Below, one piece after another: positions 9,258 through 28,778 of a stretch of 64,000 nucleotides of DNA (position 1 is the first letter of the stretch; every line of letters begins with the position of its first letter). The stretch spans positions 186,001-250,000 of the forward strand of contig CAJTEY010000001.1 of NCBI GenBank assembly GCA_910575775.1. The letters run 5' to 3'. The notes beneath the pieces were generated by a model. The model saw only the letters and a list, made by a program, of their open reading frames with translations. It searched no databases and was not told the origin of the DNA. The translations under genes were made by a program, and so were the position numbers. Origin of the DNA: Lachnospiraceae bacterium (GTDB lineage Bacteria; Bacillota; Clostridia; Lachnospirales; Lachnospiraceae).

Positions 9258-10247
9258 CTACAGGCGGATTTTATACCATATATTGCGCCACAGCTCCCAC
9301 TGTATCACCAGATAGGCCGCCAGCCGTTTCCGGGAAAAGGGCACCCGTCTTTTTTTTCCCTGTAAAGAACAGCACAGGCGGATCCCTTTCCGGGTTCCCT
9401 TCCACCAGCTTCCGCCAAGCCCTTTCCGGCAGTAGAAGAGGAGTTTTAGCACAAAGCCCACCAGCAAAAACGGCAGATTAATCAGAATCTGCGCGGGGGG
9501 CATATTTTTGTACACCACATAAACGCTGTTTGCGGCGGTGAGCTCCGCCTTAAACGCATTGTAACGGGAACCTGTGGATGCGCTGCCTGCATGATACACC
9601 ACCGCCTCCGGCACATAGAGGTTCCTGTAGCCGAACAGCTTTGCCCGGTAGCCAAGATCCACGTCCTCCAGGTAGGCGAAATGGTTTTCGTCCAGCATGC
9701 CGGTCTCTCCGAGAATACTGCGGCGGTAGATACAGGCTCCTCCGCAGGCGGAAAAGATCTCCCTCTGCCTGTTGTAACGTTGTGCGGGCTTGTCCTTTCC
9801 TGCGGCAAAGGCCCAGCCCAGCGCGCAGTAATAGTCTCCCGCATCGTCGATCAGCTCGGGCCGGCGCATGTTCACCATCTTTGCCGCCCCGGAAAAGACT
9901 CTCGCGTCCTTCTCAAGGGCCGCCTCCAGCGCACGCACAAAGCCGGGTCTGACCGTGGTATCGTTGTTTAACAAAATAACATACGCTGTGTCGCTGGCTT
10001 CCATGCCCCGGTTAACCGCCGTGCAGAAGCCAGAGTTTTTCTCCAGTGCGATCATCCGCGCACCGGGAAACTTCTCCTGCACCAGTTGTCTGCTGCCGTC
10101 CGTGGAACCGTTGTCCACCACAATCACCCGGGCAGGCTCGTCCGCCAGGGATGCCAGGCAGTTCTCGATATAGTTGATACCGTTAAAGTTCGGAATAACA
10201 ATTGTAGAACGGATTCCACCATCCCTCCCCGCTATTTCCTCTGACAT
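9258..10247 (-). CDS. GT2 family glycosyltransferase
   Basis: Single-domain GT-A transferase, 329 aa from the ATG at 10247, which has AAGGAG about 8 nt upstream; an in-frame ATG at 10322 lacks such a site. It begins with TIVIPNFNG, has VVDNGSTDGS, a LLNNDTTV metal-binding motif and the late AYLEDVDLGYRAKLFG motif typical of rhamnosyl/WcaA-type GT2 enzymes. The C-terminal 60 residues hold a hydrophobic segment and a basic tail, suggesting peripheral membrane attachment. It follows the neighbouring GT (10342-11769) on the same strand with a short gap. Donor and linkage unknown. Confidence 0.85.
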   Translation of the reverse strand: MSEEIAGRDGGIRSTIVIPNFNGINYIENCLASLADEPARVIVVDNGSTDGSRQLVQEKFPGARMIALEKNSGFCTAVNRGMEASDTAYVILLNNDTTVRPGFVRALEAALEKDARVFSGAAKMVNMRRPELIDDAGDYYCALGWAFAAGKDKPAQRYNRQREIFSACGGACIYRRSILGETGMLDENHFAYLEDVDLGYRAKLFGYRNLYVPEAVVYHAGSASTGSRYNAFKAELTAANSVYVVYKNMPPAQILINLPFLLVGFVLKLLFYCRKGLGGSWWKGTRKGIRLCCSLQGKKRRVPFSRKRLAAYLVIQWELWRNIWYKIRL

Positions 10248-10341
10248 GCTCTTTCTCCTTACCGTCCGCGTCGGTTTCTTATTTGTCCGTCCCATAAGAC
10301 ATACGTAGAACGCAGGCTTCACGCATTCGCGCGCAGCGCCT

Positions 10342-11769
10342 TCACAGGCGGATTGTGATCCCGGGATCCCACACGACCAGATAGCCTTCCCGGCGCACCG
10401 CTTCTCCTAACGCCATGCCCAGCTTTCGATATCCCGCCTCGTCACAGGTCAGTCCCGCCACATCCGCGATGCGGATTTCTCTCGTCTTCCTCCCACGCCC
10501 CTCCTTCACCCGGAGCGTTTTCTCCCGGTAAGGCAGTCCCGTGATCTCCGTAAATAACGGCCGCAATTCTTTCTGCAGCCTCATACAACGGATGTCCACC
10601 GCAGCACAGTTCTGTCTCAGCACCGCAAGATGCGTGCTCCCTCCTGTAAAGCGGGCCGGCAGTCCTTTATACAGACACTGCCCCTCCTTATCATAACCAC
10701 CCGCAAAAACACGTCCCTTTTCGTCGAGAATCCGTCCGCCCACTATGCCCGCGTCCCGCCTCACTGTCAGCAGATCCGGCTCATAGACAATGCGGTAAAA
10801 ACCCAGATGCAGACTGTGCTCCACCTGTGCGAGAAACCCTCTTCTTTTGCAGAAGTCTGCAAGGGCACGCCGTCCCGCCTCGTAAGCGTAAGTTTTGCTG
10901 CCCGTGTTAAGCGCCGTGGAATCCCTGTGGGAGCGCCAGTGATAGAGCACTTTCGGGATGTGACAGATACGAGCCTGATCCGGGACAATCGCATCCTCCG
11001 GCCAGAGACTGTCCACAATCCGTAACACCAGGTCGTAGTCCTGCGCGCCGTCATAGTCCCCGCGCAGTTTCAAGCGTTTCAACACCCCCGCCTCCACCGC
11101 CGTAAAATGGCAGATATAGTTGTTTGATAAAATTAAATCCAGGTTAAACTTTTTCTTTTTATTAGGAAATACAAAGGTTTGCGCCGCCTCATCGTACTTG
11201 TCCTCATCTGAGTACAGAAGAACGGGCGGGCATCCCTCCTGTCTGCCCCGGTGCACACAGCAGGCCATCTCATATAACGCATCAGGTGTTATGAAATCAT
11301 CATGATCGAGAAGGGCAATGTAATCTCCCCCCGCCAGTCCAATTCCTGCATTGGTGTTCTCCGCAATGCCCTGGTTCTCTGAAAGGCGGCTGTAGCGTAT
11401 CCGCAGATCTCTGGTCTCATGAATGATCTGCCGCACCACACGCTCCACGGCTGCGCCTGCGCCCGCATCCATGATAAGCAGCTCCCAGTGCGGATAGCTC
11501 TGTGCCTGCACAGAGGCAATCATTTCACGCAGGTACGCCTCCGCCGTCTCATATGCGGGCACGACAATGCTGAACAGATACGGATAATCCGCCGTCTCCT
11601 GTCTCTGCCTGGCAAGTGTATGTGCGTCTGGAAGCAGATACCGGTAATCCGCTTTTCTCTCCTCCTGCACACGTTCCGCCGCTGCATAGAAAGTGCCCGC
11701 CAGTCCGTTCTTCTTTAAATAATTCACTGTTTTTCTCACATTGTCGATTCTCAGTATCCGATTTCCCAC
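10342..11769 (-). CDS. GT2 family glycosyltransferase with N-terminal helical extension
   Basis: 475-aa glycosyltransferase. The N-terminal ~70 residues are a helical extension; the GT-A domain starts at FSIVVPAYET and carries ALLDHDDFITPDAL (DxD-type metal site) and DYDLVLRIVD. About 150 further residues follow the GT-A core. The start is GTG at 11769 with AGGAG 8 nt upstream. It resembles the large rhamnan/capsule GTs also found at 13992 and 16094. It is immediately downstream of pgcA in transcription, separated by a stem-loop. Sugar specificity is not readable. Confidence 0.83.
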   Translation of the reverse strand: MGNRILRIDNVRKTVNYLKKNGLAGTFYAAAERVQEERKADYRYLLPDAHTLARQRQETADYPYLFSIVVPAYETAEAYLREMIASVQAQSYPHWELLIMDAGAGAAVERVVRQIIHETRDLRIRYSRLSENQGIAENTNAGIGLAGGDYIALLDHDDFITPDALYEMACCVHRGRQEGCPPVLLYSDEDKYDEAAQTFVFPNKKKKFNLDLILSNNYICHFTAVEAGVLKRLKLRGDYDGAQDYDLVLRIVDSLWPEDAIVPDQARICHIPKVLYHWRSHRDSTALNTGSKTYAYEAGRRALADFCKRRGFLAQVEHSLHLGFYRIVYEPDLLTVRRDAGIVGGRILDEKGRVFAGGYDKEGQCLYKGLPARFTGGSTHLAVLRQNCAAVDIRCMRLQKELRPLFTEITGLPYREKTLRVKEGRGRKTREIRIADVAGLTCDEAGYRKLGMALGEAVRREGYLVVWDPGITIRL

Positions 11770-11929: not shown

Positions 11930-13651
11930 TCAGATGTTCTTCTTGACTTCTTCCGTCAGTCTGTCAAGTCTCGCCTGGGCATCTTCAAGGCTTGTGCCCT
12001 TTACACCCATGTAGAACTTGATCTTCGGCTCCGTGCCGGAAGGTCTTGCACAGCACCAGGAGTCATTCGTCAGATCAAAATAGAGAACGTTGGACTTCGG
12101 CAGCCCGGTTTCTCCCGCCTCGCCCGTCTCCAGATTCAGCGTCTTTCCTGTATCATAATCCCTGAATTCCTTCACCGTCAGCTCGCCAAAGCTCTTAGGC
12201 GGATTCTGGCGCAGCTTGTTCATCAGCTCCTCGATCTCCTTCGCGCCCTCAACGCCCTTCTTGGTGATAGAATACTGGCTCTCTTTGTAGTAACCGTACT
12301 TCTCATAGAGGCTGATCATCTGATCCCAGACGGTTCTTCCGTTCTTCTTGCACCATGCCGCCATCTCGCACAGACACATTACCGCCACAATGGCGTCCTT
12401 ATCCCTGGCGTGGGTGCCTGCCAGACAGCCGTAGCTCTCCTCCAGGCCGAACACATAGTTGTTGGAGCCGGTCTGCTCAAAGAGTTTGATCTGCTCACCG
12501 ATAAACTTAAAGCCTGTCAGCACCTCAATGAATCTGGCCTTATAATCCTCCGTGATCGCACGCGCCATGTTGGTGGTCACAATCGTGGTCACAAGAGCCG
12601 GATTCTCAGGCATCTTTCCTGCAGCCGTCCGCTCTCTCAGAATGTATTCCGCAATCAGCATGCCTGACATGTTGCCCGTGAAAGGCACATATTCGCCGGA
12701 CTTGGTGTCCAGTGCGTAGATGCCGAGTCTGTCTGCATCGGGATCCGTTGCCAGAACGATATCGGCGTTTTTCTCCTTCGCCAGCTTCAGTGCGAGGGTG
12801 AATGCCTTGGGATCTTCCGGGTTGGGGTACTCAAGCGTCGTGAAGTCGGGATCGGGCATCTCCTGTTCGGGCACAACGTATACGTTCTTAAAGCCAAGCT
12901 CGGAGAGAATCCGCCTTACAGGCACATTGCCCGTGCCGTTAAAGGGCGAATAAACAATCTTCATATCCTCCGCCATCTCCTCAATCACTTCGGGATGGAT
13001 AATCTGCTTTTTCAGCTCCGCCATGTACTTGTCGTCGATCTCTTTGCCGATGACCACATAGAGGCCGGCTTTTTTCGCTTCCTCCTTGTCCATTGTCTTC
13101 ACGGTATGATAATCGGTCACGTTGTTGACTTCCTCAATGATCTCCACATCCTTGGGAGCCGTAACCTGTGCGCCATCCTCCCAGTAACACTTGTAGCCGT
13201 TATACTCCGGCGGATTATGGCTGGCCGTAATCACAATGCCGGAAATGCAGCCCAGCTCCCTGAGCGCAAAGGATAACTCGGGCGTAGGCCTGAGCGCGTC
13301 AAATACATATGCCTTGATGCCGTTGGCCGCAAGGCACAGAGCCGCCTCATCTGCAAATTCGGGAGACATCCTTCTGGAATCGTAGGCAATCGCCACACCC
13401 TTCTCCTCACCGCCCTGTTTCTTTATGTAATTAGCCAGACCCTGCGTTGCTTTGCGCACCGTGTAGATATTCATACGGTTCGTGCCCGCGCCGATCACGC
13501 CGCGCAGCCCTCCCGTACCGAAAGCAAGTTCCTTGTAAAAACGGTCCTCAATTTCCTTCTCGTCATTTCTGATCGCCAGAAGCTCCTGCTTCGTCCCCTC
13601 ATCAAAGTAGGAATCCTCCAGCCAGAATTCAAACTGCTCTTTGTAGCCCAT
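11930..13651 (-). CDS. pgcA: Phosphoglucomutase/phosphomannomutase (alpha-D-phosphohexomutase)
   Basis: Interconverts glucose-6-phosphate and glucose-1-phosphate, feeding RmlA and UDP-glucose synthesis. The 573-aa length fits the long PgcA-type Firmicute mutase. Catalytic phosphoserine S144 is in TASHNPPEYNGYK, the Mg loop is DPDADRLG (D303, D305, D307), and the phosphate-binding RPSGTEPKIKFY motif is near the end. AAGGAGGG precedes the ATG. It is transcribed behind a strong promoter at 13894-13922 together with the small frameshifted gene. The name pgcA is by family architecture; mannose activity cannot be excluded. Confidence 0.93.
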   Translation of the reverse strand: MGYKEQFEFWLEDSYFDEGTKQELLAIRNDEKEIEDRFYKELAFGTGGLRGVIGAGTNRMNIYTVRKATQGLANYIKKQGGEEKGVAIAYDSRRMSPEFADEAALCLAANGIKAYVFDALRPTPELSFALRELGCISGIVITASHNPPEYNGYKCYWEDGAQVTAPKDVEIIEEVNNVTDYHTVKTMDKEEAKKAGLYVVIGKEIDDKYMAELKKQIIHPEVIEEMAEDMKIVYSPFNGTGNVPVRRILSELGFKNVYVVPEQEMPDPDFTTLEYPNPEDPKAFTLALKLAKEKNADIVLATDPDADRLGIYALDTKSGEYVPFTGNMSGMLIAEYILRERTAAGKMPENPALVTTIVTTNMARAITEDYKARFIEVLTGFKFIGEQIKLFEQTGSNNYVFGLEESYGCLAGTHARDKDAIVAVMCLCEMAAWCKKNGRTVWDQMISLYEKYGYYKESQYSITKKGVEGAKEIEELMNKLRQNPPKSFGELTVKEFRDYDTGKTLNLETGEAGETGLPKSNVLYFDLTNDSWCCARPSGTEPKIKFYMGVKGTSLEDAQARLDRLTEEVKKNI

Positions 13652-13991: not shown

Positions 13992-16016
13992 TTATTTTTC
14001 CACTTTCAGCGCAAAATCACTGCGGTCAAGCGAGAAATTGGGATTATAGTAGGGATCTCCCTGCTCCAGCAGTTCCTTCCACCGCTCCCTGAAGAGCGCC
14101 GACTCCTTCTCGTAGCGCTCGGCACCCGCGCCTGTCAGGTCTGTTCCTCTGGACGCCGACTCATAGTGATAGAGCTCCGCAAACGGGGTGAAAACATTGA
14201 CCCGCCCGGCCTTCCATGCGCGGACGCAAAGATCCACGTCATTCAAAGCCACGGCAAAGGCCTCATCCAGCCCGCCAAGCTCCTCGTAGAGAGCCTTGCG
14301 CATCATCAGGCATGCCCCCGTCACCGCCATCACGTTCTGCGCATAGCAGAGCCGCCCCATATAGCCAAGATTGCGGTGATCCACCCGGTAATGGCTGTGT
14401 CCTGCCGTCCGGTGCGCCCCAAGCCCAAGCACCACGCCTGCATGCTGGATCGTTCTGTCCTCGTAGTAGAGCTTCGCACCGACCGCTCCCACATCCTTTC
14501 TCTGGGCATACATCAGCAGCTCTTCGATCCAGTCCGGCGTTATGACACTCGTGTCGTTATTCAGAAGAAGTACATATTCGCCCTCCGCCTTAGAAACGCC
14601 CAGATTGTTGATTTTTGAATAGTTAAACTCCCCCTTATAGGTGATAACACGAACCGCCGGATTCTCCTGTATTTTGTTATAATATGCAGCGATCTCCTCC
14701 GAGACGCTGTTGTTTTCCACCACAATAATCTCATAATTGTCATAAGTGCTGCGCTCCAATATGGAGGTAATACAGCGCGTCAGATCCTCCAGATGTTCCT
14801 TGTTCGGAATCACGATGGACACCTTCGGATTCCCCAGAATCTCGTATTTAATCTGGAAAATGGTCTCAAATGCCTTCGTGGAAGTAATCTCAAAGTTTTT
14901 AAAACCCTGCGACGTCAGATGGGCCGCCACCGCTCCCTTTGCCGCCTCGATGGCATAGCTCTTCGCACTGATGTCGGAGGCCACACTGCCCGCGTGGGAC
15001 CGCCAGTAGTACATCAGCTTTGGCACGTGCACCACACACTTTGCACGGGCGGTGAGGCGCAGTATCATGTCATGGTCCTGGCTGCCGTCAAACTCGGAGC
15101 GGAACAGTTCCGTCCCGCCCAGAAGCCGTCTCGCAAAAGCACTGAAATGGCAGATGTAGTTGTTCGCCCGCAGATTGTCCGGCGCATAATCCGGCTTAAA
15201 ATGCAGGGTAATCATGTCGTCTACGGTTCCGCTGCCCTTGAATGTGGCTTCGTCACAGTAAATATAATCCGCCCCTTTCTCGCAGATCACCTTCATATAT
15301 TCATAGAGAACGCAGGGGTGCAATACATCGTCATGGTCAAAAAGCGCGATATAATTCCCCGAGGACATGGCCAGGCAAGCGTTGGTGTTGCCGGATATAC
15401 CCTCGTTTTTGGACAATTTTTTATACAGGATCCGGCAATAGAGACTGCTGCTTGGCCGCAGATACTGTTTATCCTTCTCCATGTATTCCCGGCAGATCTG
15501 CTCCACATAAGCATGCTCCTCATCGGAACCGTCCGCCAGACACAGTTCCCAACCCTCGTAAGTCTGATTCATGACGGATTCTATCGCCTGCCGCAGAAAT
15601 TTCTCGGGCGTGTTGTAGAGCGGTATCAGAATACTGAATTTGACCTCCCTGTTGAACTTATAGAGACGCTGTCTCGCCGCCTCCTCAATCTCTGGAAAGC
15701 TGGCCGATCCATGCTGCTCTCTGGCCTGCCGCTCAATCATCTTGGCATTCAGCTTGCGGGCGATCCCCTTCAGGTTCCCGTAGCAGCCAAGACGCTCCTT
15801 GAGCCGTGCAGCCTTGTGAAACAGCGTACGAAGCGGCCTGGACATGCGCCAGAGCAGGCTTCCCTTGATTTTGGCAAGCTTCTCCTCCGTCTGCGCCCTG
15901 TTATGCTCCGCCTCCGCCAGTTTTCCCGTAAGTGCGCGTCCCCGGCGTTTCTCTCTCTCATAGGCGTCCTTACAAACGCGGAGCTCCTCTGTCTCCGTCA
16001 TCCCTTTCCTATCCAT
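13992..16016 (-). CDS. Two-domain GT2 glycosyltransferase with N-terminal coiled coil
   Basis: 674 aa from the ATG at 16016 (AAGGGA upstream; the ATG at 16034 has none). Residues ~10-60 are heptad-rich coiled coil, followed by LLWRMSRPLRTLF. First GT-A domain from about 135 (FSILIPLYNTPEK, ALFDHDDVLHP); second from about 395 (KVSIVIPNKEHLEDL, LLNNDTSVITPDW, VALNDVDLCVRAW). Both domains keep acidic metal motifs, so the enzyme could add two different linkages, as in bifunctional polymerases of capsules and O-antigens. It is the last gene of the rmlB unit, behind a terminator-like hairpin at 16039-16079. Confidence 0.87.
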   Translation of the reverse strand: MDRKGMTETEELRVCKDAYEREKRRGRALTGKLAEAEHNRAQTEEKLAKIKGSLLWRMSRPLRTLFHKAARLKERLGCYGNLKGIARKLNAKMIERQAREQHGSASFPEIEEAARQRLYKFNREVKFSILIPLYNTPEKFLRQAIESVMNQTYEGWELCLADGSDEEHAYVEQICREYMEKDKQYLRPSSSLYCRILYKKLSKNEGISGNTNACLAMSSGNYIALFDHDDVLHPCVLYEYMKVICEKGADYIYCDEATFKGSGTVDDMITLHFKPDYAPDNLRANNYICHFSAFARRLLGGTELFRSEFDGSQDHDMILRLTARAKCVVHVPKLMYYWRSHAGSVASDISAKSYAIEAAKGAVAAHLTSQGFKNFEITSTKAFETIFQIKYEILGNPKVSIVIPNKEHLEDLTRCITSILERSTYDNYEIIVVENNSVSEEIAAYYNKIQENPAVRVITYKGEFNYSKINNLGVSKAEGEYVLLLNNDTSVITPDWIEELLMYAQRKDVGAVGAKLYYEDRTIQHAGVVLGLGAHRTAGHSHYRVDHRNLGYMGRLCYAQNVMAVTGACLMMRKALYEELGGLDEAFAVALNDVDLCVRAWKAGRVNVFTPFAELYHYESASRGTDLTGAGAERYEKESALFRERWKELLEQGDPYYNPNFSLDRSDFALKVEK

Positions 16017-16038
16017 ATCTTCCCTTTCTGTCATACAG

Positions 16039-16093: not shown

Positions 16094-18490
16094 TTACACT
16101 GTCAGCGTTCGTTCAGACCAGTCCACGAAAGACAGCCCCGGCTCCGTCTCACTCACCGCTTCCGTCTCCGCCAGCATACCGACCCGGTACTCTCCCTGCG
16201 CCAGTTCCTCCCGCCGCAGCCGCAGTACAAAGCCGGCCAGCCCGATATGTTTCTCCTGCGGCAGAATTTCCTCCACATCCGTCCTGTGCCAGTCTGCCGG
16301 AACTGCCAGATAGCCTGCCCCGTCCGTTCTCTGTAAAATTACTTTTCTTTCAAAGGCCGCGTTATCGGCGCCGGAAACATAGCTCCATCCCATAATCCAC
16401 AGGATATCCGGCTCATCAGCCAGTATCTTATGCTGGGGGCCGGCCAGATCCGTCGTCAGCCGCAGTGCACCCTTCCCTGCCCTTTTCACCAGTTTACGCA
16501 TGGCCGTTTTTGGCAGAAATACCGCCTCCTGCGTACAGAGATGATCCTCGTGCGGAAGCTTATAATTGCACACATAATTTGACGTATTGTCTATCAGATC
16601 CTTGTGATAAAAAGGATCCGTCCCCCGAAACTGCGGATGCTTTCCGTAAAGCGTCTCCTTCTCGGCAAGCAGTCTCTCCCATTTTCCCTCATTCTGCTCA
16701 TCCAGTCCACGGCTCAAAGACTCATGGTGGCAGAGAATCACATCATTTCTCTGTACATTAACATAGCCCGCCTCCAGCAGCTTGAAACAGAAATCCACAT
16801 CATTGTAGGCTATCGGCAGACTCTCATCCAGACCGCCTACCCTCTCGTATTTTTGCCGCGACACCATCAGACAGGCCGCCGTCACCGCCGCCACATTGTA
16901 AGTGACCCGGTTTCTCCCGAAATAGTAATCCTCCTCGTCCGGAAAGGTAACCAGCTTGTGGGAGGGTCCGATTTTCAGATTTGTAACGCCGGCGTGCTGG
17001 ATCTTCTCCGTACCCGCATACCACAGCTTCGCCCCTACGGCTCCCACATGGGGCAGAAGCGCCTGTCCCGCCATACGTTCCAGCCAGCTCCCCTCAATGA
17101 TCTCTATATCATCATTCATCAGAAGAAGCAGGTCTCCCTTTGCCTTCTTCTCTCCCAGATTGCACATTTTGGAGAAATGAAAGGGCATCGGCTCATAAAT
17201 ATAAGTAAAGCCGTAAACTTTCTGCAGCGCCTCCATTTTTTCCCTGTTCTCCTCGCTGCTTCCATTGTCCACCACAATCCACTCATAATAGCGGTACTGC
17301 GTCTTATTCCTAAAGGAACGAAGGCATTTTTCCAGCACTTCGGGGTGGTCTTTGGAGGGAATGATCACGGACACCACACGGTGCGGCGCAATCGCCGTAT
17401 TTTCACTGCCTGACCGGGTGCAGCGCTCCGTGCCTGAAACGGAAGTGTCGTAGAGCAGATGGTAAATATCCGGGTCTGCTCCCTGCCGCAGCACGCCGCG
17501 GCCGCCTCTGCGCATCAGCATGTCTTCCTTGAGCGTCACATATTTGGAGGAAGCGCCCGTCAGAAAACGGCCCTCTGAAAGCTCCTTTTTCAGACTCTCC
17601 TGGACAAGAGCAAACTGCTCCCGGGGCGAAACAGCCTGTCCCATTCCGACAGCATTTCTCTCAGGCAGATCGTATCTTCTATGGTATAGAATGGAATCCA
17701 GATGCCCGATAGCCTCTCTCCTCCTTCTGAAATACCCCTCCGAAAGTTCCTCAATCTTCTCCTCCAGCCGCAGGCAAAGCTCGTAAAAACCGAGATCGGG
17801 ATCCTTCATGCTCACCATACGGTAATTCATACTGTCAAGCACACTGACCCGGACAGCCACAAAATGCCCCCAGTACTGGAATGCAAGGAGGGTATCCGGG
17901 GAATACGCCGGCTTCAGCCATGGTTCCATCCGCTTCGACAGATCTTCCCAATAAAAATCTTCATCCGCGTATGCCAGAAGACATGCACTGTTTTTCGCAA
18001 AATAGCTCCGCACCTCGGAAAACACAAAAGGCGCCAGCAGACCGTCTCCGTAAGTCAGAATACAGACATCCGTCTTTGGCACTACAATCTCCCGGAATCC
18101 CTTTATCGCAATCGGTTCCGGCGGTTCTGTAACACCCGTATTTTTATTTTCATGCACCGCGATCCATTGCAGATAGGGGTTGGACTGCTGCCAGAGCGTC
18201 TCCTCGTACGCCTGCTTTCTCTCCTCTGAAGCCTGTATCTTTGACAGCTCCTCCTCCGATATCACAGTTCCTCTCATTCTGCGCACCGCACCCCGCAGGG
18301 GAGCCGACGCTTTGGCCGCTATCCGATACAACGGATTGGCACAGATGCGGTTCAGATTATCCTGCAGATCCGCCTGTTTTCTCTCCGCGTCCGCAATGCG
18401 TCCGGCCATCTGGGTATTTTTTTTTCGCTCCTCCTCGTAGGCAGCCATATAGTATGCCACCCAGTCATAGCGGTTTTTCTGAATGCTCAT
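16094..18490 (-). CDS. Large GT2 glycosyltransferase with degenerate first domain and beta-rich C-terminus
   Basis: 798 aa. A coiled-coil head (~15-60) and NPLYRIAAKASAPLRG segment mirror the neighbouring 674-aa GT. Residues ~130-280 look like a degenerate GT-A fold (CILTYGDG, YADEDFYWED) and the clear GT2 domain begins near 370 (VSVIIPSKDHPEVLEK, LLMNDDIEI, IAYNDVDFCFKLLEAG). The last ~110 residues form a predicted beta-sandwich-like region, similar in style to the C-terminus of the preceding methyltransferase/kinase. Its ATG overlaps the stop of that gene (TGATG), so the two are translationally coupled. Confidence 0.85.
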   Translation of the reverse strand: MSIQKNRYDWVAYYMAAYEEERKKNTQMAGRIADAERKQADLQDNLNRICANPLYRIAAKASAPLRGAVRRMRGTVISEEELSKIQASEERKQAYEETLWQQSNPYLQWIAVHENKNTGVTEPPEPIAIKGFREIVVPKTDVCILTYGDGLLAPFVFSEVRSYFAKNSACLLAYADEDFYWEDLSKRMEPWLKPAYSPDTLLAFQYWGHFVAVRVSVLDSMNYRMVSMKDPDLGFYELCLRLEEKIEELSEGYFRRRREAIGHLDSILYHRRYDLPERNAVGMGQAVSPREQFALVQESLKKELSEGRFLTGASSKYVTLKEDMLMRRGGRGVLRQGADPDIYHLLYDTSVSGTERCTRSGSENTAIAPHRVVSVIIPSKDHPEVLEKCLRSFRNKTQYRYYEWIVVDNGSSEENREKMEALQKVYGFTYIYEPMPFHFSKMCNLGEKKAKGDLLLLMNDDIEIIEGSWLERMAGQALLPHVGAVGAKLWYAGTEKIQHAGVTNLKIGPSHKLVTFPDEEDYYFGRNRVTYNVAAVTAACLMVSRQKYERVGGLDESLPIAYNDVDFCFKLLEAGYVNVQRNDVILCHHESLSRGLDEQNEGKWERLLAEKETLYGKHPQFRGTDPFYHKDLIDNTSNYVCNYKLPHEDHLCTQEAVFLPKTAMRKLVKRAGKGALRLTTDLAGPQHKILADEPDILWIMGWSYVSGADNAAFERKVILQRTDGAGYLAVPADWHRTDVEEILPQEKHIGLAGFVLRLRREELAQGEYRVGMLAETEAVSETEPGLSFVDWSERTLTV

Positions 18491-20634
18491 CAGTTAAACA
18501 ATCCCCTTTTCTGCAAATGTTTCACGGTTTCCGCCGGCATCGCGGTCACCTCCATGACCGCCTCCAGATGATTCTCCTCCTCAGAGGGAAGTCCCCAGAG
18601 GGAAAGGGTGATGTTCGGATCTTCCGTAGGAAAAGCGTATGTGTCCTCCCCGATCTTAAACCCGTTCATCTGAATCTGCTTTCCTTTTAAGGAAATTTCC
18701 CCACCGTTCCAGCTGATTCTCTTGATATAAATCACGCAGGTATGACTACCCGGGTCAATCCTTACCGCGCTCCGTCCTCGCGCAATGCGTACGGAAAGCT
18801 CCACCATACCCTCGCCGGTTCGCAGAACCTGTTCACCGTCCTCCTCCGGGAAAAAGGACTGCTCCTCAAGGAAACCTCTCCCGGTATCCTCATAAATCTG
18901 TATACGATTGTCCACAGACTTATTGGTCAGCCCCTCGCAGAAATCTGCCAGCCGGTAAACGGGCTGACCGATGGCCTCCCTGATCTCCGCCATGGAAAGC
19001 CGCTTTCCCGTCACATACTTCTGGAATTTCATCTCCTGCCTGCGGTACTGTTCCGCCTCGACAGGTCCAATCTGTAGTCTGCTCATTATCAAATCAGGAT
19101 TTAATCCATTTCTTTTTTCATCCTCAAGCAGATAGCAGTAGAGGGCGCGAAAAGCAATTTCTCTTGTCTCAATAGCCCTGTCAAAAGTCCATTCGCAGTC
19201 AATCAGCCCCCACTTTTCCTCATTTATATAACGTTCGATATTAATATTCCGATTTGAGTCCCCATTTTCATCACACGCGTTACTTCCTTGTGGAATCAAG
19301 AGATTTGCGAAAATCAAGTCATAGTCGGCAATCTCTTTCTCCTCTCCCCATGTGATCCGTTTCAAGTACTCGTCGAAGAGACTGTGAAAACCTTCAAGGT
19401 CATTTTTCTCCAGACACTCGTCAAGAATTTCTTCCAGTGTCCGCCCTTCCAAAAATTTAATCGTGATATAAGGTGTGCCGTCAGCCTCTCTTTCCAGCTT
19501 GCACGCATTGACCTCAAGGCGACTCCCCTCATACCGTTCGGCCAGCTTGTCGCAGGCCGCAGCCGTGGCTTCGATGTGCTCCCAGGCTCTTTTTGATAAC
19601 GGATGTTTCTCTATTCTTCTGCCAAATCCGATACTCCTCTGTAACGTTTTGATCTGAAATTCTTCCTTTCTGTCGTTGGAGTACTTCACATATTCCTCTG
19701 ACAGGGCAGGGCCCAGAAGGAGCATATAGGAATTGGAAAAGAGAGGAAACTGTCCTTCCTTCAATACGGTGTCAAAGACACGCTTCTCATCAAAGAGCTG
19801 CAGTCTGTCACGGTCAAAATTACGCATGTTATTTGATAATTCCCCGCGATTCGGAAGCCTTCTGTCGGAATAGAGTGTTGTCATAAACTTATAGTCGGGA
19901 TAAGGATAATACATCTGCATCTCCGAAAAGCCGCATCGCCGGGCTATGGCGAGAAGGCCGTCTCTCGTAAAGGTGCGCACCACACCGCCCTCCGGGTAGT
20001 CCTCAATTCCCCCAAAATACGTGCCCAGATGGTCTTCTCTGCATCCGGCCCAATACTTTAATCCAAATTTATTTTCTATGGCAATCGCAATATGCCCCCC
20101 GGGCTTCAAGTGCTTCTTAATAATCCGCAGAAAATCATCAAATGGCGTTTCCGAGCCGATATACGCCTGCGCGTACTCAAAGACGCCGATCAGACAGATA
20201 TAGTCATAGTCATCGGGCAGATCCGGCTCCACATCCTGAAAATTGCCCACATGGATCGTCACATTGTCCGCGTCCATATGACGGTAGGCATTGATCATGC
20301 TCCGCTTTTTGGACAGCTCCACACATGTCACTTCCCCGGCCCGCCTTGACAGGGCCCCCGTGATCGCGCCGCAGCCTGATCCGACTTCCAGTACCTTCAT
20401 GGCACGGCTGACCGGCAACCACTCCACAATATTTTCCCGGAGCGGAGAGAGGTGGTACAAAATCTCCCAGCTCTTTCTCTCTTCTATGATTCTCTGGTAC
20501 TCCACCTCCGCACAGTCCCTTGCAATGGCGAGCAGCTCGTCTTCTATCTCTCCGTCACAGTAGAAATCCTCGCCCGGGTAATGAGTTAAATCCAGTTTTA
20601 TTTTTCCTATTCTCTCTGTTTTATCTTCCGGCAT
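18490..20634 (-). CDS. WbdD-like SAM methyltransferase fused to kinase-like domain
   Basis: 714 aa. The N-terminal class I methyltransferase has SAM motif VLEVGSGCGAIT (81-92), an acidic strand VELS and LKPGG. After ~310 a protein-kinase-like region follows: possible ATP-lysine segment EKHPLSKRAWEHI, hinge-like FLEGRTLEEIL, catalytic-loop-like DYDLIFAN with Asp439 and Asn444 spaced exactly as in HxDxxxxN, and metal-binding-like LIDCEW (Asp479). A beta-rich domain ends the protein (~600-700). E. coli WbdD is a methyltransferase/kinase of similar size that caps O9a mannan and sets chain length. Gene order permease-ATPase-this-GT parallels wzm-wzt-wbdD-wbdA. The capping role is inference; the C-terminal coiled-coil ruler of WbdD is not seen. 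Confidence 0.72.
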   Translation of the reverse strand: MPEDKTERIGKIKLDLTHYPGEDFYCDGEIEDELLAIARDCAEVEYQRIIEERKSWEILYHLSPLRENIVEWLPVSRAMKVLEVGSGCGAITGALSRRAGEVTCVELSKKRSMINAYRHMDADNVTIHVGNFQDVEPDLPDDYDYICLIGVFEYAQAYIGSETPFDDFLRIIKKHLKPGGHIAIAIENKFGLKYWAGCREDHLGTYFGGIEDYPEGGVVRTFTRDGLLAIARRCGFSEMQMYYPYPDYKFMTTLYSDRRLPNRGELSNNMRNFDRDRLQLFDEKRVFDTVLKEGQFPLFSNSYMLLLGPALSEEYVKYSNDRKEEFQIKTLQRSIGFGRRIEKHPLSKRAWEHIEATAAACDKLAERYEGSRLEVNACKLEREADGTPYITIKFLEGRTLEEILDECLEKNDLEGFHSLFDEYLKRITWGEEKEIADYDLIFANLLIPQGSNACDENGDSNRNINIERYINEEKWGLIDCEWTFDRAIETREIAFRALYCYLLEDEKRNGLNPDLIMSRLQIGPVEAEQYRRQEMKFQKYVTGKRLSMAEIREAIGQPVYRLADFCEGLTNKSVDNRIQIYEDTGRGFLEEQSFFPEEDGEQVLRTGEGMVELSVRIARGRSAVRIDPGSHTCVIYIKRISWNGGEISLKGKQIQMNGFKIGEDTYAFPTEDPNITLSLWGLPSEEENHLEAVMEVTAMPAETVKHLQKRGLFN

Positions 20635-20699
20635 CTTCCATTCCTTCCCATCAGCAGCTTTCTTTCCTGCCCACAGTGTCCGCCCATAAATATCATGCG

Positions 20700-22028
20700 C
20701 TATTTTACCACGACTTTAGAATTCATGTCGTAAAATCCCACCGTATCTTTATCGGAAATCACCGTCACGCCCAGCACGTCGTAGAGCCGGTGATATACCG
20801 TGAAATCATCCTCCTCATACCCGGTCACACCAAGCGAAAGAAGGTACTCTCCTCCCTGCAGATTCATATCCTGGGTGAAGGTGATTTCCTTCGTCTCCCC
20901 GGCCTCCACAGATTCGAGAAACGCTTTCTCAAACATCGTGTTGGTGCCCGTGATCTCCGTACCGCGCACCGTTTTGATGGTGAAGGCAAAAATCGGCGCG
21001 GCAATCTTTTCCGTCATCTCCACACGCATATGAATGGTAAACGCGCTTCCCTTCAAAATGGTGGCAGTTCTCGTCCCCTTCTCATCCGTAATATAGTATT
21101 CCGTAATCTGTGCCTTTTTAGAACCGTATTCCAGCAGCTCCGGGTTTTCCGCACACCCGGCCGCGCCGGAGACATTCCTTTTTCCCGGCTCCGCCCCGTC
21201 CATCTTGCTGCCGTCCACGCCCTTCGCCGCCATCGCCCGAAGCTGTTCATCGTCCAGCAGCCGCTCGCCTTCCGACTCAGGCGCCGTATACTGTCCGACC
21301 AGCACCTGCTTGTATGTGTCTATCATCTGCTTGGGCGCGCCTTCTCCCAGTTTGATTCCCTGGTTTAAAAGCACCACCCGGTCACAGTATTTGCTGATAC
21401 TGCTCAGATCATGGCTGACGAAGACAATCGTCTTGCCCATCTCCTTAAATTCCTCAAATTTGTGATAACATTTGGCTTGAAAAAAAACATCGCCAACCGA
21501 AAGAGCCTCATCCACAATCAGGATCTCCGGGTCGATGTTGATGGCTACCGCAAAAGCCAGCCGCACGAACATACCGCTGGAATAAGTCTTGGCAGGCTGA
21601 TATACATAGTCTCCGATGTCTGCAAATGCCAGAATTTCATCCAGCTTCTGGTCGATCTCCTTCTTGGAAAAGCCGATCATCGTGCCATTTAAGTAAATAT
21701 TTTCAATGCCGTTGTACTCCATATTGAATCCGGCGCCAAGCTCCAGCAGCGCAGAGATGCGCCCGTTGACCTCCACCTCGCCTGCCGTAGGAGAGAGAAC
21801 GCCTGTTATTATTTTTAAAATTGTGGATTTCCCGGAACCGTTGGTGCCGATAATCCCGACGCATTCCCCCTGCCTTATGGTCATATTGACCCCTTTTAAA
21901 GCACGGTGCTCCGTATGATGTTTTCCACGCCCGATGTGCAGCGCCTCCTTGAGCCGTTCCGAAGGCTTGTCGTAGAGTTTATACACTTTTTCGAGATCTG
22001 TGACCTTGATCGCGATATGATTATCCAT
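20700..22028 (-). CDS. wzt: ABC transporter ATPase with Wzt-type C-terminal carbohydrate-binding domain
   Basis: Energises export of lipid-linked polysaccharide. 442 aa from the ATG at 22028 (GAGGAAAT upstream; the ATG at 22058 has no site). The ATPase part has Walker A GTNGSGKST (61-69), signature TYSSGM (149-154), Walker B ILIVDEA (169-175) and H206. Beyond ~290 comes a ~150-aa beta domain ending DTVGFYDMNSKVVVK, the layout of Wzt C-domains that bind the finished, capped non-reducing end. TagH, the teichoic acid ATPase, lacks this kind of domain, so Wzt is the closer type. Partner permease is upstream across a 145-nt gap. Confidence 0.9.
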   Translation of the reverse strand: MDNHIAIKVTDLEKVYKLYDKPSERLKEALHIGRGKHHTEHRALKGVNMTIRQGECVGIIGTNGSGKSTILKIITGVLSPTAGEVEVNGRISALLELGAGFNMEYNGIENIYLNGTMIGFSKKEIDQKLDEILAFADIGDYVYQPAKTYSSGMFVRLAFAVAINIDPEILIVDEALSVGDVFFQAKCYHKFEEFKEMGKTIVFVSHDLSSISKYCDRVVLLNQGIKLGEGAPKQMIDTYKQVLVGQYTAPESEGERLLDDEQLRAMAAKGVDGSKMDGAEPGKRNVSGAAGCAENPELLEYGSKKAQITEYYITDEKGTRTATILKGSAFTIHMRVEMTEKIAAPIFAFTIKTVRGTEITGTNTMFEKAFLESVEAGETKEITFTQDMNLQGGEYLLSLGVTGYEEDDFTVYHRLYDVLGVTVISDKDTVGFYDMNSKVVVK

Positions 22029-22129
22029 ACCATATTTCCTCGCATGATATATGGGCATTGCCGCCGCCCGAATCCGCTTTGCTGCTTCTCGCTCGCAGGC
22101 TGGCGCCCTGTTTCATTCCGCAGTTACGC

Positions 22130-22151
22130 CGAGGCTGCGTAGCAGTCCTCG
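22130..22151. repeat. Short palindrome in the permease-ATPase gap
   Basis: CGAGGCTGC and GCAG-T-CCTCG pair around GTA (one bulged T). It sits in an otherwise featureless 145-nt spacer between the two ABC transporter genes (22029-22173). No ORF with a ribosome binding site is visible there. Confidence 0.4.
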
Positions 22152-22173
22152 TGACCGGGCTTGCTCGATCGGC

Positions 22174-23208
22174 TCATAGCACATCTGCAAAATGACTGCG
22201 CAGCCTTCTGAACACCAGTGTCCCGATACAGAACATACTGATTGTAAAAATCCAAAAATAAGTGGAAGAGTAGAAGTGTTCCCAGAACCACACTTCCTCA
22301 AAAATCGCGCTCCGATAACCGTTTACAATATATACAAGCGGATTCAGCTTAAAAAGCGTCTTCATGTTATCACTGGGCAGCATATTGATGTTCCACATAA
22401 TAGGCGTCGCCCACATGCCGATCTGAAGCGCAATGCTGATCACCTGCTGCAGATCTCTGATAAAAACTACCAGTGCGCTCGTCAGATAGCTCAGTGCCAG
22501 CACAAAGAAAACCAGACAGAGACTGTAGTAGAGAAGCTGCACCGTGTAAATCGAGGGGGTGTAACCGTAGCACACCGCCACCACCAGCAGAATGCCCACA
22601 AAAAATACATGAATGAACGTGGCCGCAACCACCTTGATGATGGGCAGGATACTGATGTTAAACACCACTTTCTTAACAAGATAGGTGTACTCCACAAGCG
22701 CCATCGTCCCCTGGGAGATTGCCTCCGAGAAATAGAACCAGGGCACCAGTCCCGCCATCAGATAGAGTACATAGGGCGGCGCTACGCCGTCCGATGCCAG
22801 AAACTCCACCCTCGCCTGAAATACTTTGTCAAACACGATCCAGTACATCAGCACCGTCACCACAGGCTGCGCCAGCGCCCACACAATCCCGAGATAGGAT
22901 CCTGCATACCGCTTCTTAAAGTCGTTTTTCGCCAATTTCCAGATCAGTCCCCTGCTCTGGAAAAGCTCCACCGGAATGGTCACGATCCTGTCATGATAAA
23001 TCGTAAATATGATACAGGTGAAGGTAATCAGTACGCAGCCGCTTACCTTCTTCATCTGCTCCGTCACCTGATCGGCAAGCGGATTGTGATGAAGAATCAG
23101 CACAGATGCCAAAAGCAGGCCAAATCCCCAGAATACAGCTATCGCCGCTGACTTCGGAAATTCCTTTTTCCTTATGCAGTTTTTCTCTTCCTGTCTCTTT
23201 TCGCTCAT
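22174..23208 (-). CDS. wzm: Polysaccharide ABC transporter permease (Wzm/TagG type)
   Basis: ABC-2 membrane subunit of a polysaccharide exporter. 344 aa from the ATG at 23208, which follows an AAGG-containing site; upstream in-frame starts overlap the end of rmlC. A short cytoplasmic head with one hydrophobic helix pair is followed by the family core beginning LFQSRGLIWKLAKNDFKKRYAGSYLG in two parts (amphipathic interface helix, then WALAQPVVTVLMYW), with about six transmembrane segments in total. NPLVYIVNGYRSAIF near the end is a typical Wzm/TagG motif. It works with the Wzt-like ATPase just downstream. The extra N-terminal hydrophobic hairpin (~18-60) is longer than in common Wzm proteins. 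Confidence 0.9.
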   Translation of the reverse strand: MSEKRQEEKNCIRKKEFPKSAAIAVFWGFGLLLASVLILHHNPLADQVTEQMKKVSGCVLITFTCIIFTIYHDRIVTIPVELFQSRGLIWKLAKNDFKKRYAGSYLGIVWALAQPVVTVLMYWIVFDKVFQARVEFLASDGVAPPYVLYLMAGLVPWFYFSEAISQGTMALVEYTYLVKKVVFNISILPIIKVVAATFIHVFFVGILLVVAVCYGYTPSIYTVQLLYYSLCLVFFVLALSYLTSALVVFIRDLQQVISIALQIGMWATPIMWNINMLPSDNMKTLFKLNPLVYIVNGYRSAIFEEVWFWEHFYSSTYFWIFTISMFCIGTLVFRRLRSHFADVL

Positions 23209-23246
23209 GTTACTGCCTTCTTGATCTGCAAAGAATGCCGCGTTTC

Positions 23247-23810
23247 TCACGCCCGGTACTTCTCTGTAAAGGAGGAAAGGCCCTCCCACTTTTTATCCTT
23301 GTCGGACATCACAAGTTCCATCCCCCCGGGAATCGGCCACTCCACACCAATCTCAGGATCACTGTAAAGAATACCGCCCTCATCATTGGGATGATAAAAG
23401 TCCGTACATTTGTAAGAAAATTCTGCGTAGTCGGAAAGCACCAGAAAGCCGTGGGCAAAGTTCTTCGGAATAAAAAACTGCTTTTTGTTCTCAGCAGAAA
23501 GGGTTACACCGTACCACTTGCCATAAGTCGCGGATCCCGGCCGCAGATCCACCGCCACGTCAAACACCTCGCCGGCAATCACCCGTACCAGCTTGTCCTG
23601 CGGATAATTGATCTGAAAATGCAGCCCTCTGAGCACGCCCTTCACCGACGCGGACTGGTTATCCTGCACAAAAACCTGATCGATTCCCGCCGCCTTATAG
23701 TCCTCGTAATGGTAAGTCTCCATAAAATAACCCCTGTTGTCCCCAAACACCGCCGGAGTAATCACCTTAAGCCCTTCAATTTCGCACGTCTCCACTGTTA
23801 TTTTTCCCAT
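23247..23810 (-). CDS. rfbC: dTDP-4-dehydrorhamnose 3,5-epimerase
   Basis: Third step of dTDP-L-rhamnose synthesis. At 187 aa it has normal RmlC size. Conserved features: FGDNRGYFMETY, VQDNQSASVKGVLRGLHFQ (with the active-site His in RGLHFQ), FDVAVDLRPGS, and FIPKNFAHGFLVLSD with FSYKCTDFY. AAGGAGG precedes the ATG. It lies between the GH25 gene and the exporter permease in the rmlB unit, tying rhamnose-type sugar supply to the exported polymer. The C-terminal DPEIGVEWPI is standard. Also called rmlC. Confidence 0.97.
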   Translation of the reverse strand: MGKITVETCEIEGLKVITPAVFGDNRGYFMETYHYEDYKAAGIDQVFVQDNQSASVKGVLRGLHFQINYPQDKLVRVIAGEVFDVAVDLRPGSATYGKWYGVTLSAENKKQFFIPKNFAHGFLVLSDYAEFSYKCTDFYHPNDEGGILYSDPEIGVEWPIPGGMELVMSDKDKKWEGLSSFTEKYRA

Positions 23811-23844: not shown

Positions 23845-25197
23845 CTATTCTACCGGTACATTTCCCGTATCCCCGTTCACCACGCCGGAATACCCTGCGG
23901 CGCCTTTGGCGTGATTGATGGAAGTATCAATATTCATGTAGCACAGGTTCAGATCCACATTTGTGGAAATGCCGTCCACCGTTCCCTTTGAGGTATACTG
24001 CCACATATGATAATAATACGCATCGTATGTAGGCGCATCCGCGTACTCCGCCAGCCAGATTCTGTAATCCGACAATCTCGACATATCAAGCCTGTCATTG
24101 AGCCAGTTGCGGGAAGCGTATACGCCCGTCTCATAACCCGCCGCCTCAATAGTCTGCAGGAATGCCCTGTGCGCCCTTGTCCGCTCATCACTGTCCAGCC
24201 CGTCGGCTCTCCCCCTGCCACCGGCGCTCTCACTGTCGAGAAATACCGGGTAATCCACATCATAATTTTCGATCAGACGGATCACCATGGAAGCCTCCTC
24301 CACAGCCTCCACCTCATCCAGAGCCTGGGTGAAGAAGTAAACGCCCACGGGAATGCCTGCCGAGATGGCGCCCTCTATGTTCTCCTCGTATCTGGGATCG
24401 ATAACCAGCGCACCTGTCGTCGCACCCCGGTATCCACAGCGGATAATGGCAAATTCCACACCCGCATCCTTCACCGCCTCCCAGTTGATTTCCTGATTCC
24501 ACTTGGAAACATCGATGCCGAGCTTCGCGCTGCCTTTGTCAAACTGCAGCTCCATATTCTCTGTGCCGTCCGCATCCTCCTCGGCGCTGTTGACCGCCTT
24601 ATCCTCCTTTTCCGGGTCGATGTCTTCCTCCGTCACCATCAGATACTCAATATTGTCAAGCACCCGGTACTCGATATCCTGGCGTACTTGTATCGTAGTG
24701 ATGGTGTTCGGCACACGGAAGCCGTCTTTTTCGTTGAGAAACACACTGTACTCCCCGGAGCGCAGGCCGTCCACATAAATCACGCCGTCCTTGTCGTTAT
24801 CTGTGTATTCGCCCACATCCTGAATCGTGACAGTGAAATCCGCTCCTGTCACCAGGCGTCCAACGCTGTCTACCACCATGATCCGCAGATCCTTGGCCAC
24901 GGAGCTCATCATCAGGGACACACTCCTGCCGGAGTAGGATTCGATGCTCTTAAACTTGACCTCCGGGTCAAAAAAGGTCTCATCCCTCAGAAAAGCAGAC
25001 AGGTCGCCTCCGATCTGCCCATCCTCCGTCTCCACCGCTTCCTCCTGCGCAGTCATCTCCTCCTGCACCGGCTCCCTCTCCGCAAGGCCGAGTTTTTGTT
25101 TCACCGTATCTAAATTCACAATGGCGATCACCGCAAACACCACCAAAAATACAACGATCATGCCGGCCATCGCCCATTTCATCCGTCTAGAGCCCAT
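23845..25197 (-). CDS. Membrane-anchored GH25 muramidase
   Basis: 450 aa. One N-terminal transmembrane segment (~10-28), a linker, an Ig-like or transthyretin-like beta domain (~75-180, [20 protein letters not shown] split over two strands) and a C-terminal GH25 lysozyme domain (~225-425) with [20 protein letters not shown] and FLDSES catalytic Asp/Glu. GH25 enzymes cut the MurNAc-GlcNAc bond. The ATG at 25197 has GAGG 7 nt upstream and overlaps the end of rmlA by 11 nt, so translation is coupled. Its beta domain and catalytic domain resemble the muramidase at 32741-35638. A short tail of ~20 residues follows the catalytic domain. Confidence 0.9.
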
Positions 25198-26056
25198 TTG
25201 CAACCTCTACTATATACTGTCCGTAAGCAGTCTTCATAAGCGGCTCCGCCAGCTTAAGAAGCTGCTCCTTGGTGATAAACCCTCTCCTGTAAGCGATCTC
25301 CTCAATACAGGAAATATAAAGCCCCTGTCTCTTCTGGAAAGCCGCCACAAAATCCGCCGCATCGAGCAGCATGTCATGACTTCCCGTATCCAGCCACGCG
25401 AAGCCGCGGCCGAGTGTTTCCACCCGCAGCGCTCCTCTTTGCAGATATTCATTGTTAATGCTTGTAATCTCTATTTCTCCTCTGGCAGAAGGCTTCACAT
25501 TCCTTGCGATCTCCACCACGTCATTGTCATAAAAATACAGTCCCGGCACCGCGTAGTTGCTCTTCGGATGCTCCGGCTTCTCCTCGATGGAGAGGGCCAT
25601 GCCGTTCTCGTCGAACTCCACCACGCCGTACTCCCTCGGATCTCTCACATAATAGCCGAAAATGGTGGCGCCGCTCTCCCTTGCCGCCACTTCCTTAAGC
25701 ACCTTGGAAAAACTCTGTCCGTAAAAAATATTGTCGCCGAGAATCAAGGCCACGCTGTCTGTCCCGATAAAATCCGCACCGATGATAAAGGCGTCTGCAA
25801 GCCCTCTCGGATATTCCTGGACCGCATACTCCATCCGAAGGCCAAGCTGCTCTCCCGTGCCGAAAAGTTCCCGAAAAACCGGCACGTCCCTGGGTGTGGA
25901 AATGATCAGGATCTCCCTGATTCCCGCCAGCATCAGAATAGACAGCGGATAATAGATCATCGGCTTATCATAGATCGGCATAATCTGTTTGGAAACCGCT
26001 TTGGTCAGCGGATAGAGCCTGGTACCCGAGCCGCCTGCTAAAATAATTCCTTTCAT
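25187..26056 (-). CDS. rfbA: Glucose-1-phosphate thymidylyltransferase
   Basis: First step of dTDP-rhamnose synthesis: glucose-1-phosphate plus dTTP gives dTDP-glucose. 289 aa, the usual RmlA length. The nucleotide-binding [13 protein letters not shown] is at the N-terminus, with [34 protein letters not shown] and [10 protein letters not shown] in the expected order. It starts downstream of the DUF4956 gene and overlaps the GH25 gene by 11 nt. Also called rmlA. Confidence 0.97.
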
Positions 26057-27467: not shown

Positions 27468-27486
27468 ATTCCCTGCGCTCCCCGCA

Positions 27487-28413: not shown

Positions 28414-28760
28414 GAATCCTGCTTTCCTGCAGGGCGAAAAAACTTCCCTGCACATCGTTCCAGAACGCCAAGCCCGGCCGCCGCAAGAAGCGCCAGCACG
28501 GAATAGCGGAACACAAAGCTGATATCATAAATGGAATAACAGACCGCTTCCCCCAGATAATCCGTGGAAAAACTGACGGTAACCGCGCCTTTCATAAGAT
28601 AGAGCGCCGCGTACACCAGGCAGGCAATGACAAGGTCATGCACCAGCCAGTTGACAGCCGCCCTGCCCGCATCCTTCCAGTCTGCAAGCTCCCTTTCTCC
28701 CGCGATCTTCCATGTAACCATTCCCGGCACAAGCAATAATAGGATAATCATACAAACCAT
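28410..28760 (-). CDS. Small membrane protein of unknown function
   Basis: 116 aa, three hydrophobic helices (about 1-18, 38-60, 78-98) and a short basic tail with FFRPAGKQDS. GGGGAGG lies 12 nt upstream of the ATG and the stop overlaps the next gene's start (ATGA). It is wedged between the CotH gene and the carbohydrate-binding lipoprotein, so is probably an accessory membrane part of that module. No family recognised. Confidence 0.7.
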   Translation of the reverse strand: MVCMIILLLLVPGMVTWKIAGERELADWKDAGRAAVNWLVHDLVIACLVYAALYLMKGAVTVSFSTDYLGEAVCYSIYDISFVFRYSVLALLAAAGLGVLERCAGKFFRPAGKQDS

Positions 28761-28778
28761 ATATAAATATACCTCCCC

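Follow-up and report, generated by a model that had tools for sequence, protein, structure and literature searches.

Length control of glycan chains exported by ATP-binding cassette (ABC) transporters is known best from Escherichia coli O9a. The O9/O9a system, with which that of Klebsiella O3 is grouped, is encoded by wzm, wzt, wbdD and wbdA; WbdA is a GT4-type glycosyltransferase (GT). Published WbdD has 708 residues, and the O9 cap is described as a methyl phosphate, that of O8 as a methyl group without phosphate (PMC3482155). In A. aeolicus Wzt the 3-O-methyl group of the cap is reported to stack on Trp362 (PMC9445017). Capped glycans are also described from Gram-positive bacteria. In the S-layer glycans of Geobacillus a 2-O-methyl cap is attributed to WsaE, which is encoded beside Wzm and Wzt (PMC2943079). 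For C. difficile Ox247 (SLCT-11) an ABC-exported S-layer glycan is reported in which rhamnose bears a modified phosphate at the chain terminus; the phosphate is read as cyclic, and the authors draw a comparison with O9a (PMC6254364). Here we describe a glycan cluster of a Lachnospiraceae bacterium (assembly GCA_910575775.1, contig CAJTEY010000001.1, positions 186,001 to 250,000 of the forward strand); this stretch of 64,000 nucleotides is called the window. The core of the cluster is a Wzm/TagG-type permease, a Wzt ATPase and a protein of 714 amino acids (aa), the proposed cap enzyme.

The C-terminal domain of Wzt matches that of O9 Wzt, and the 714-aa protein carries, after its methyltransferase domain, a region with the element order of a kinase and invariant catalytic residues. 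A capped, ABC-transporter-dependent glycan pathway is therefore the best reading of the cluster. It is probable, rather than certain, that a rhamnose-containing chain is phosphorylated and methylated at its non-reducing end, read by the Wzt_C domain, exported and probably tied to the wall. The cap itself is best read as a phosphate or methyl phosphate on what would be a wall glycan.

The likeness to E. coli O9/O9a extends to several levels. The genes of the window follow the O9 order wzm-wzt-wbdD-wbdA, window Wzt and O9 Wzt are collinear through both domains with 38% identity in 446 aa, and a methyltransferase is followed by a kinase in one protein of about 710 residues. Both systems have an arginine at the cap position of the Wzt C-domain and a helical stretch with a W-R-M motif at its end. 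They differ in that the window kinase has no detected sequence kinship to the WbdD kinase, in that a beta domain of the 714-aa protein takes the place of the C-terminal coiled coil of WbdD, the W-R-M motif of the window lying on a GT protein, and in that the window has GT2 polymerase candidates, rhamnose genes and an LCP protein instead of lipopolysaccharide ligation. The SLCT-11 system shares with the window its occurrence in Clostridia, ABC export and a rhamnose glycan, with a terminal modified phosphate in Ox247; its acceptor, as described, is a protein, and in the passages that describe it no capping enzyme is named. The slg cluster of G. stearothermophilus (Wzm-Wzt-WsaE) is likewise Gram-positive, with ABC export, a methyltransferase beside Wzt that is described as fused to rhamnosyltransferases (WsaE), and a terminal 2-O-methyl cap; it differs in its acceptor, an S-layer protein, and the accessible part of the report mentions no kinase. 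The TarGH/TagGH exporters of wall teichoic acid resemble the window in the transporter core, but we know of no TagH with a Wzt_C domain or an accompanying capping pair.

The Wzm-Wzt transporter

The core genes, and the sugar, glycosyltransferase and ligase genes of the window given below, are all on the minus strand. The permease open reading frame (ORF) spans 22174-23289, and the gene likely occupies 22174..23208, with the ATG at 23208 chosen from the sequence. It matches ABC2_membrane (PF01061) in Pfam with 64.9 bits (cut-off 26.9) and the NCBIfam model galactan_ABC_perm with 50.2 bits, under that model's cut-off. The ATPase (20700..22058) combines an ABC_tran domain (82 bits) with a Wzt_C domain (PF14524, 141.4 bits, cut-off 30.4) at residues 310-445 (20724..21131). 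TagH models score 250.8 and 210.8 bits on the window transporter, both under their cut-offs.

The closest solved structure to the Wzt C-domain by sequence is PDB 2r5o (E=2e-7), whose printed sequence is the O9 Wzt C-domain of E. coli HS. The O9 cluster of that strain reads wzm, wzt, a 708-aa class I S-adenosylmethionine (SAM) methyltransferase and wbdA. An initial annotation of the window, made from the sequence, had proposed a Wzm/TagG permease, an ATPase with a Wzt-type C-terminal domain and the gene order of O9; these proposals agree with the matches and with the E. coli HS cluster.

The 714-aa methyltransferase-kinase protein

The gene of the 714-aa protein (18490..20634) overlaps the next gene by one base. 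A SAM methyltransferase domain covers approximately residues 20-310 (19705..20577) and matches Methyltransf_12 in Pfam at residues 82-182 (40.9 bits). It is followed by a kinase-like domain at residues 311-560 (18955..19704), assigned from topology and motifs, and in the predicted model by a beta domain at residues 579-698 (18541..18900). Past approximately residue 310 the protein matched no Pfam family.

The AlphaFold2 model of the protein has a mean predicted local distance difference test score of 86.7. In this model the strands and helices of residues 313-480 come in a kinase-like order, with K343 in strand 338-345; together with the D-x4-N catalytic loop (D439-N444) and the metal-binding Asp D479 this gives the motif set of protein kinases. 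Residues 579-698 are predicted to be largely beta-stranded and are followed by a short helix at the very end (701-713); the model has no C-terminal coiled coil.

D439, N444 and D479 are each identical in all 81 rows of an alignment of the window protein with 80 homologs; K343 is identical in 80 of them, and the remaining row has X there. A kinase-only alignment of 29 rows, with 28% mean column identity, has R322, T330, K343, D439, N444, D479, E481 and W482 as invariant columns. The lysine, the D-x4-N and the D-x-E-W motifs are also kept in 20/20 divergent loci of the family described below. The initial annotation had joined a SAM methyltransferase to a kinase-like region with D439, N444 and D479; the arrangement and the positions hold, and the model predicts a kinase-like element order past residue 310.

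Profile searches point the same way. A kinase-only profile against the PDB gave a best E value of 0.024, and 54 of the 55 matches were named kinases or phosphotransferases; they were mostly redundant JAK1/JAK2 entries, and most align with part of the N-lobe only. With the whole-protein profile GCN2 was found at 2.4e-4, behind two methyltransferases. Pfam recognises the WbdD kinase as APH/Pkinase and does not match the window kinase. When the 29 kinase domains were searched singly against Pfam, the window domain had no match and the others had weak ones, a few of them to kinase families among unrelated ones: DUF4135 in two, and Pkinase, Choline_kinase and TCAD9 in one each. We take DUF4135 and TCAD9 to be kinase-like families.

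The beta domain has an R-(I/V/L)-D-P motif and no Pfam family, and it turns up again in kinases, methyltransferases and GTs encoded by such clusters. Besides 18541-18900 it was found in L189 and L166 by profile and in L171, L184 and L186 by eye.

Distribution and gene order

The closest named relatives of the 714-aa protein are mostly from Lachnospiraceae. Within the genus a match (E<=1e-20) is present in 37/37 genomes including the window's own, one of them (G010) with only a fragment; at the same threshold there was none in 24 genomes of other families of the order. Relatives are present in 100 of 200 genomes of the family and, in a phylum sample (E<=1e-10), in 10 of 299, six of these outside the family. 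The Wzt_C domain occurs in 34 of the 299 phylum-sample genomes (29 above cut-off), in 31 of 299 genomes of the class of G477 (26 above cut-off) and in 4 of 97 of the class of G468. The initial annotation had called a capped pathway of this kind unusual in Firmicutes, which is too strong in view of these counts and of the published Geobacillus and C. difficile glycans.

Among 80 loci of named genomes, Wzt lies upstream of the 714-aa relative on the same strand in 79, within -60 to 250 base pairs (bp) in 71, and a gene resembling that of the 680-aa or the 798-aa GT of the window follows within 200 bp in 76. The single non-conforming locus (L062) reads as a Wzt-kinase fusion in an ORF of 1170 aa. 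This candidate was rejected for its N-rich junction; a stop codon is probably masked, because the stretch is full of N.

Twenty further loci of the family were picked for split or very long ORFs and are therefore not a random sample. Wzt is present in all of them and directly upstream in 18; other ORFs intervene in L135 and L140. The methyltransferase and kinase occur as neighbouring genes, the kinase is fused to a GT, or all three form a single protein of up to 1890 aa. The methyltransferase part was not detected in one of the twenty (L143).

Proteins encoded after Wzt and the coiled-coil motif

Two multi-domain GTs follow the 714-aa protein, as had been annotated: a 798-aa protein with a helical-looking N-terminus and one GT2 domain (16094..18490), and a 680-aa protein with two GT2 stretches (13992..16034), which is the polymerase candidate and whose helical-looking N-terminus ends in GSLLWRMSRPLR. 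The coiled coil of WbdD terminates in SRSWRMT and that of the O8 methyltransferase in SRSWRIT. In the window this coiled-coil-end motif is at residue 59 of the 680-aa GT and not on the 714-aa protein. A loose form of the motif is present in the first 140 aa of 51/79 relatives of the 680-aa GT and 24/80 relatives of the 798-aa GT, and in 1/584 background proteins.

Elsewhere in Bacillota, a Wzt that carries Wzt_C is often followed by a gene for a methyltransferase, which either stands alone or is joined to GTs and to stretches that resemble coiled coils; all coiled coils were assigned by eye. L167 has a single protein whose methyltransferase and kinase are followed by a coiled-coil-like part, the motif SSSWRIT and three stretches of GT2 type. 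In L171 Wzt and a methyltransferase are followed by a kinase that has a beta-like part and a helical tail with NSRSWRIT at its end. The position is sometimes taken by a sulfotransferase-like protein, as in L175, L176 and L216 (each match under the Pfam cut-off), by a pyruvyltransferase, as in L193 and L212, or by a protein of another kind. The occupants of these five loci suggest sulfate or pyruvate end-caps in other Bacillota.

The gene immediately following Wzt in L180 encodes an FkbM-type methyltransferase whose long tail resembles a coiled coil, a layout like that of the O8 methyltransferase. The genome of the window itself has a second cluster of Wzm and a Wzt with Wzt_C (L195, C2:278000-297000), followed by a 1228-aa methyltransferase-coiled coil-GT2-GT4 protein with a WsaE-like layout.

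The cap-pocket residue of Wzt

At the position of A. aeolicus Trp362 an alignment of the C-domain has Arg424 in the window Wzt (codon 20787..20789), Arg in O9 Wzt and Trp in O8 Wzt. The domain-only alignment was used; a full-length alignment gave Lys, not Trp, at the E. coli O8 column. Arg424 and an Asn at the position of A. aeolicus N313 only suggest, by alignment, that the C-domain binds a modified chain end.

In the discovery set Arg is present in 103/104 kinase loci, comprising 80/80 close and 21/21 more distant loci together with L167 and L171, while L168 has His. It is present in 1/14 methyltransferase-only loci (the exception being L195; L179 was assigned to this class by its likeness to L177), in 2/2 sulfotransferase-like loci and in 2/7 loci of other or unclear class. 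These last two are L190, where one alignment gives Arg and another Ala, and L196, whose genome encodes the methyltransferase-kinase pair on a different contig (L197). The counts exclude L089 (no full Wzt), L169 (kinase, short Wzt), L191 (contig end), and L170 and L197, whose loci have a kinase but lack a usable Wzt.

L167, L168 and L171 had first been counted as methyltransferase-only or unsure, and kinase motifs were then found in all three. L167 and L171 had been re-inspected because of their Arg, and a profile including the three loci was then run over the ORFs of L166-L198. Such re-labelling favours the Arg rule by selection, so 27 further loci were scored afterwards. Five of them have Arg: three kinase loci (L209, L213, L220), one pyruvyltransferase locus (L212) and one with a weak sulfotransferase match (L216). 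Among the 22 loci with another residue the kinase profile matched none, and a methyltransferase is the first ORF in 15; seven of these 15 labels come from the MT2 profile alone (L210 at E=2e-3, L211, L214, L223, L225, L228, L231). Arg in 3/3 kinase loci, with Arg in 5/27 loci overall, gives a hand-computed Fisher probability of 10/2925 = 0.0034, which ignores kinship among the loci.

These counts lead us to a wider, tentative proposal, to which we give somewhat less than an even chance. Lachnospiraceae and some other Bacillota would independently have taken up the window-type kinase family, unrelated by sequence to WbdD, for the synthesis of an anionic end-cap, and Arg as against Trp or Tyr at one position of the Wzt pocket would tell a charged cap (phosphate, sulfate or pyruvate) from a neutral methyl ether in Gram-negative and Gram-positive bacteria alike. 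If a single position tells the charge, the chemistry of the cap would be predictable from the transporter sequence.

Proposed pathway and alternatives

The chain would contain rhamnose, judging from RmlC (23247..23810, dTDP_sugar_isom, 239.3 bits) and RmlA (25187..26056, NTP_transferase, 250.1 bits; named from its cluster context) in the cluster and an rmlD elsewhere in the genome (C1:489017-489844, outside the window). A WcaJ-type initiating sugar-phosphate transferase (7732..9141; TIGR03023, 508.4 bits, above cut-off) would start the chain on a lipid carrier, and the GT2 proteins would lengthen it in the cytoplasm. The kinase domain of the 714-aa protein would then phosphorylate the non-reducing end and its methyltransferase domain would methylate that end, on the phosphate or on the sugar; together the two modifications would halt growth and so set chain length. 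The C-domain of Wzt would recognise the charged end, with Arg424 standing where an aromatic residue serves for neutral methyl caps, and the capped chain would leave through Wzm-Wzt. An LCP-family glycopolymer transferase, the proposed wall ligase (6378..7547; PF03816, 121.4 bits), is encoded in the cluster, as expected of an LCP-dependent wall glycopolymer, and its gene neighbourhood indicates that it may finally attach the chain to the wall.

Several observations weigh against these proposals. BLASTP of the window kinase against WbdD gave no meaningful match. Against a 44-row profile of the window kinase family the WbdD kinase scored -2.7 bits and ranked 51st of 137 sequences, a set made up of the two parts of WbdD (kinase and methyltransferase), 115 E. 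coli ORFs and 20 shuffles. Aligned with the WbdD kinase by hhalign, the profile reached 0.1%, no better than with shuffles. WbdD was entered as a single sequence and three of the 44 profile rows extended past the kinase, so distant kinship could be missed. In hhalign of the window protein with WbdD, 83 columns of the methyltransferase part aligned at 45.5% probability, a generic stretch. In a structure search with the whole model (VIA-align) the 50 matches listed were methyltransferases covering residues 20-310 only; the absence of WbdD among them is uninformative, since methyltransferases fill the places. The Arg rule has its own exceptions: L168 has a kinase but His at the cap position, L195 a methyltransferase and no detected kinase but Arg, L193 a pyruvyltransferase but Trp, and L229 Gln beside a cytidylyltransferase that may serve a charged sugar. 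The trees show few independent origins: there are three to four pairs on supported branches, of which on average 1.9-2.8 point the expected way and 0-0.5 the opposite way, which is not significant. In one tree the trait column was retained and 16 close rows were omitted; the other was built without that column and with 16 of the 80 close loci. To our knowledge there is no glycan structure for this organism.

No sequence kinship was detected, and the 714-aa protein may therefore work like WbdD without being a WbdD. The description as WbdD-like in the initial annotation thus holds for the methyltransferase-kinase layout, is not supported as kinship and does not extend to the C-terminal coiled coil. 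Its overall interpretation is supported as far as the capped ABC pathway is the best reading, and not supported as regards WbdD kinship and rarity in Firmicutes.

Several other explanations of the genes were considered. Many Gram-positive wall glycans bear non-terminal phosphate groups, and the two enzymes could decorate the chain internally with side phosphates or O-methyl groups, Wzt-C reading that decoration or something else and the chain having no terminal cap. We hold this to be unlikely, given that the methyltransferase-kinase pair closely follows the Wzt gene in 71 of the 80 loci, that the O9 domain with which window Wzt-C is collinear is known to recognise the chain end, and that the same position in other Bacillota often holds a methyltransferase. 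Pfam does not recognise the kinase domain, and no glycine-rich loop is seen in the sequence between its first strands, which would suit a dead or structural domain beside a methyl-only cap, as in E. coli O8 or Geobacillus WsaE. The invariance of the lysine, D-x4-N and D-x-E-W motifs across very divergent members and the Arg in the Wzt pocket, as in O9 and not the Trp of O8, make this quite improbable.

Kinase-like folds have many substrates and the kinase domain can be a separate gene, so that it might act on a protein, a nucleotide sugar or the lipid carrier and leave the cap to the methyltransferase; its fusion to methyltransferases or GTs in many of the 20 selected loci, and its occurrence with Arg in the cap pocket, render this very improbable indeed. 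An explanation that overlaps the capped wall-glycan pathway and differs from it in the last step has the same cap and export with a protein acceptor, as in S-layer-type glycans, instead of peptidoglycan. The published capped ABC glycans of Gram-positive bacteria that we found are S-layer glycans, as far as described (PMC2943079, PMC6254364), but the LCP gene follows WcaJ in 4/4 homologous loci with enough room, and we give this ending a small though appreciable chance.

The novelty of a capped ABC glycan pathway is limited, because the capped glycans of Geobacillus and C. difficile are already published. What appears to be new is a kinase without sequence kinship to WbdD, how widely it occurs, the modular ways in which it is fused, and the Arg rule; searches of the open-access literature listed, by title and abstract, no report of this kinase family or of a methyltransferase-kinase cap in Lachnospiraceae. 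If the pathway is as proposed, about half of the same-family species sampled (100/200) would make surface chains with a phosphate-type cap that the exporter checks, and the length-control logic of O9a would extend to a large family of gut bacteria. An enzyme could be named for a class of phosphate caps, and a one-residue rule would read cap charge from Wzt sequences.

Other genes of the cluster

The host genome assembly comprises 4.88 Mb in 176 contigs. From high to low coordinates the minus-strand order is RmlB, a CotH/Cthe_2159/VTC/DUF4956 group, RmlA, a GH25 protein, RmlC, Wzm, Wzt and the 714-aa protein. The 798-aa and 680-aa GTs come next, and then an enzyme of the phosphomannomutase/phosphoglucomutase family (11930..13651), two GT2 proteins (10342..11769 and 9258..10322), the WcaJ-type enzyme, the LCP protein, a further GT2 protein and a GlmS-like protein. 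RmlB (31566..32648) was assigned from its translation and context, and its relatives adjoin RmlA in several loci.

The DUF4956, VTC, Cthe_2159 and CotH genes lie between RmlB and RmlA at 26095-31556. This group looks like a variable insert, since such genes adjoin RmlA in L033, L034, L036 and L037 and not in L038, L041 and L043. Two GH25 lysozyme-family proteins are encoded in or beside the glycan cluster, at 23845-25203 and 32741-35650. Relatives of the former adjoin RmlC in many of the loci listed, which were not counted.

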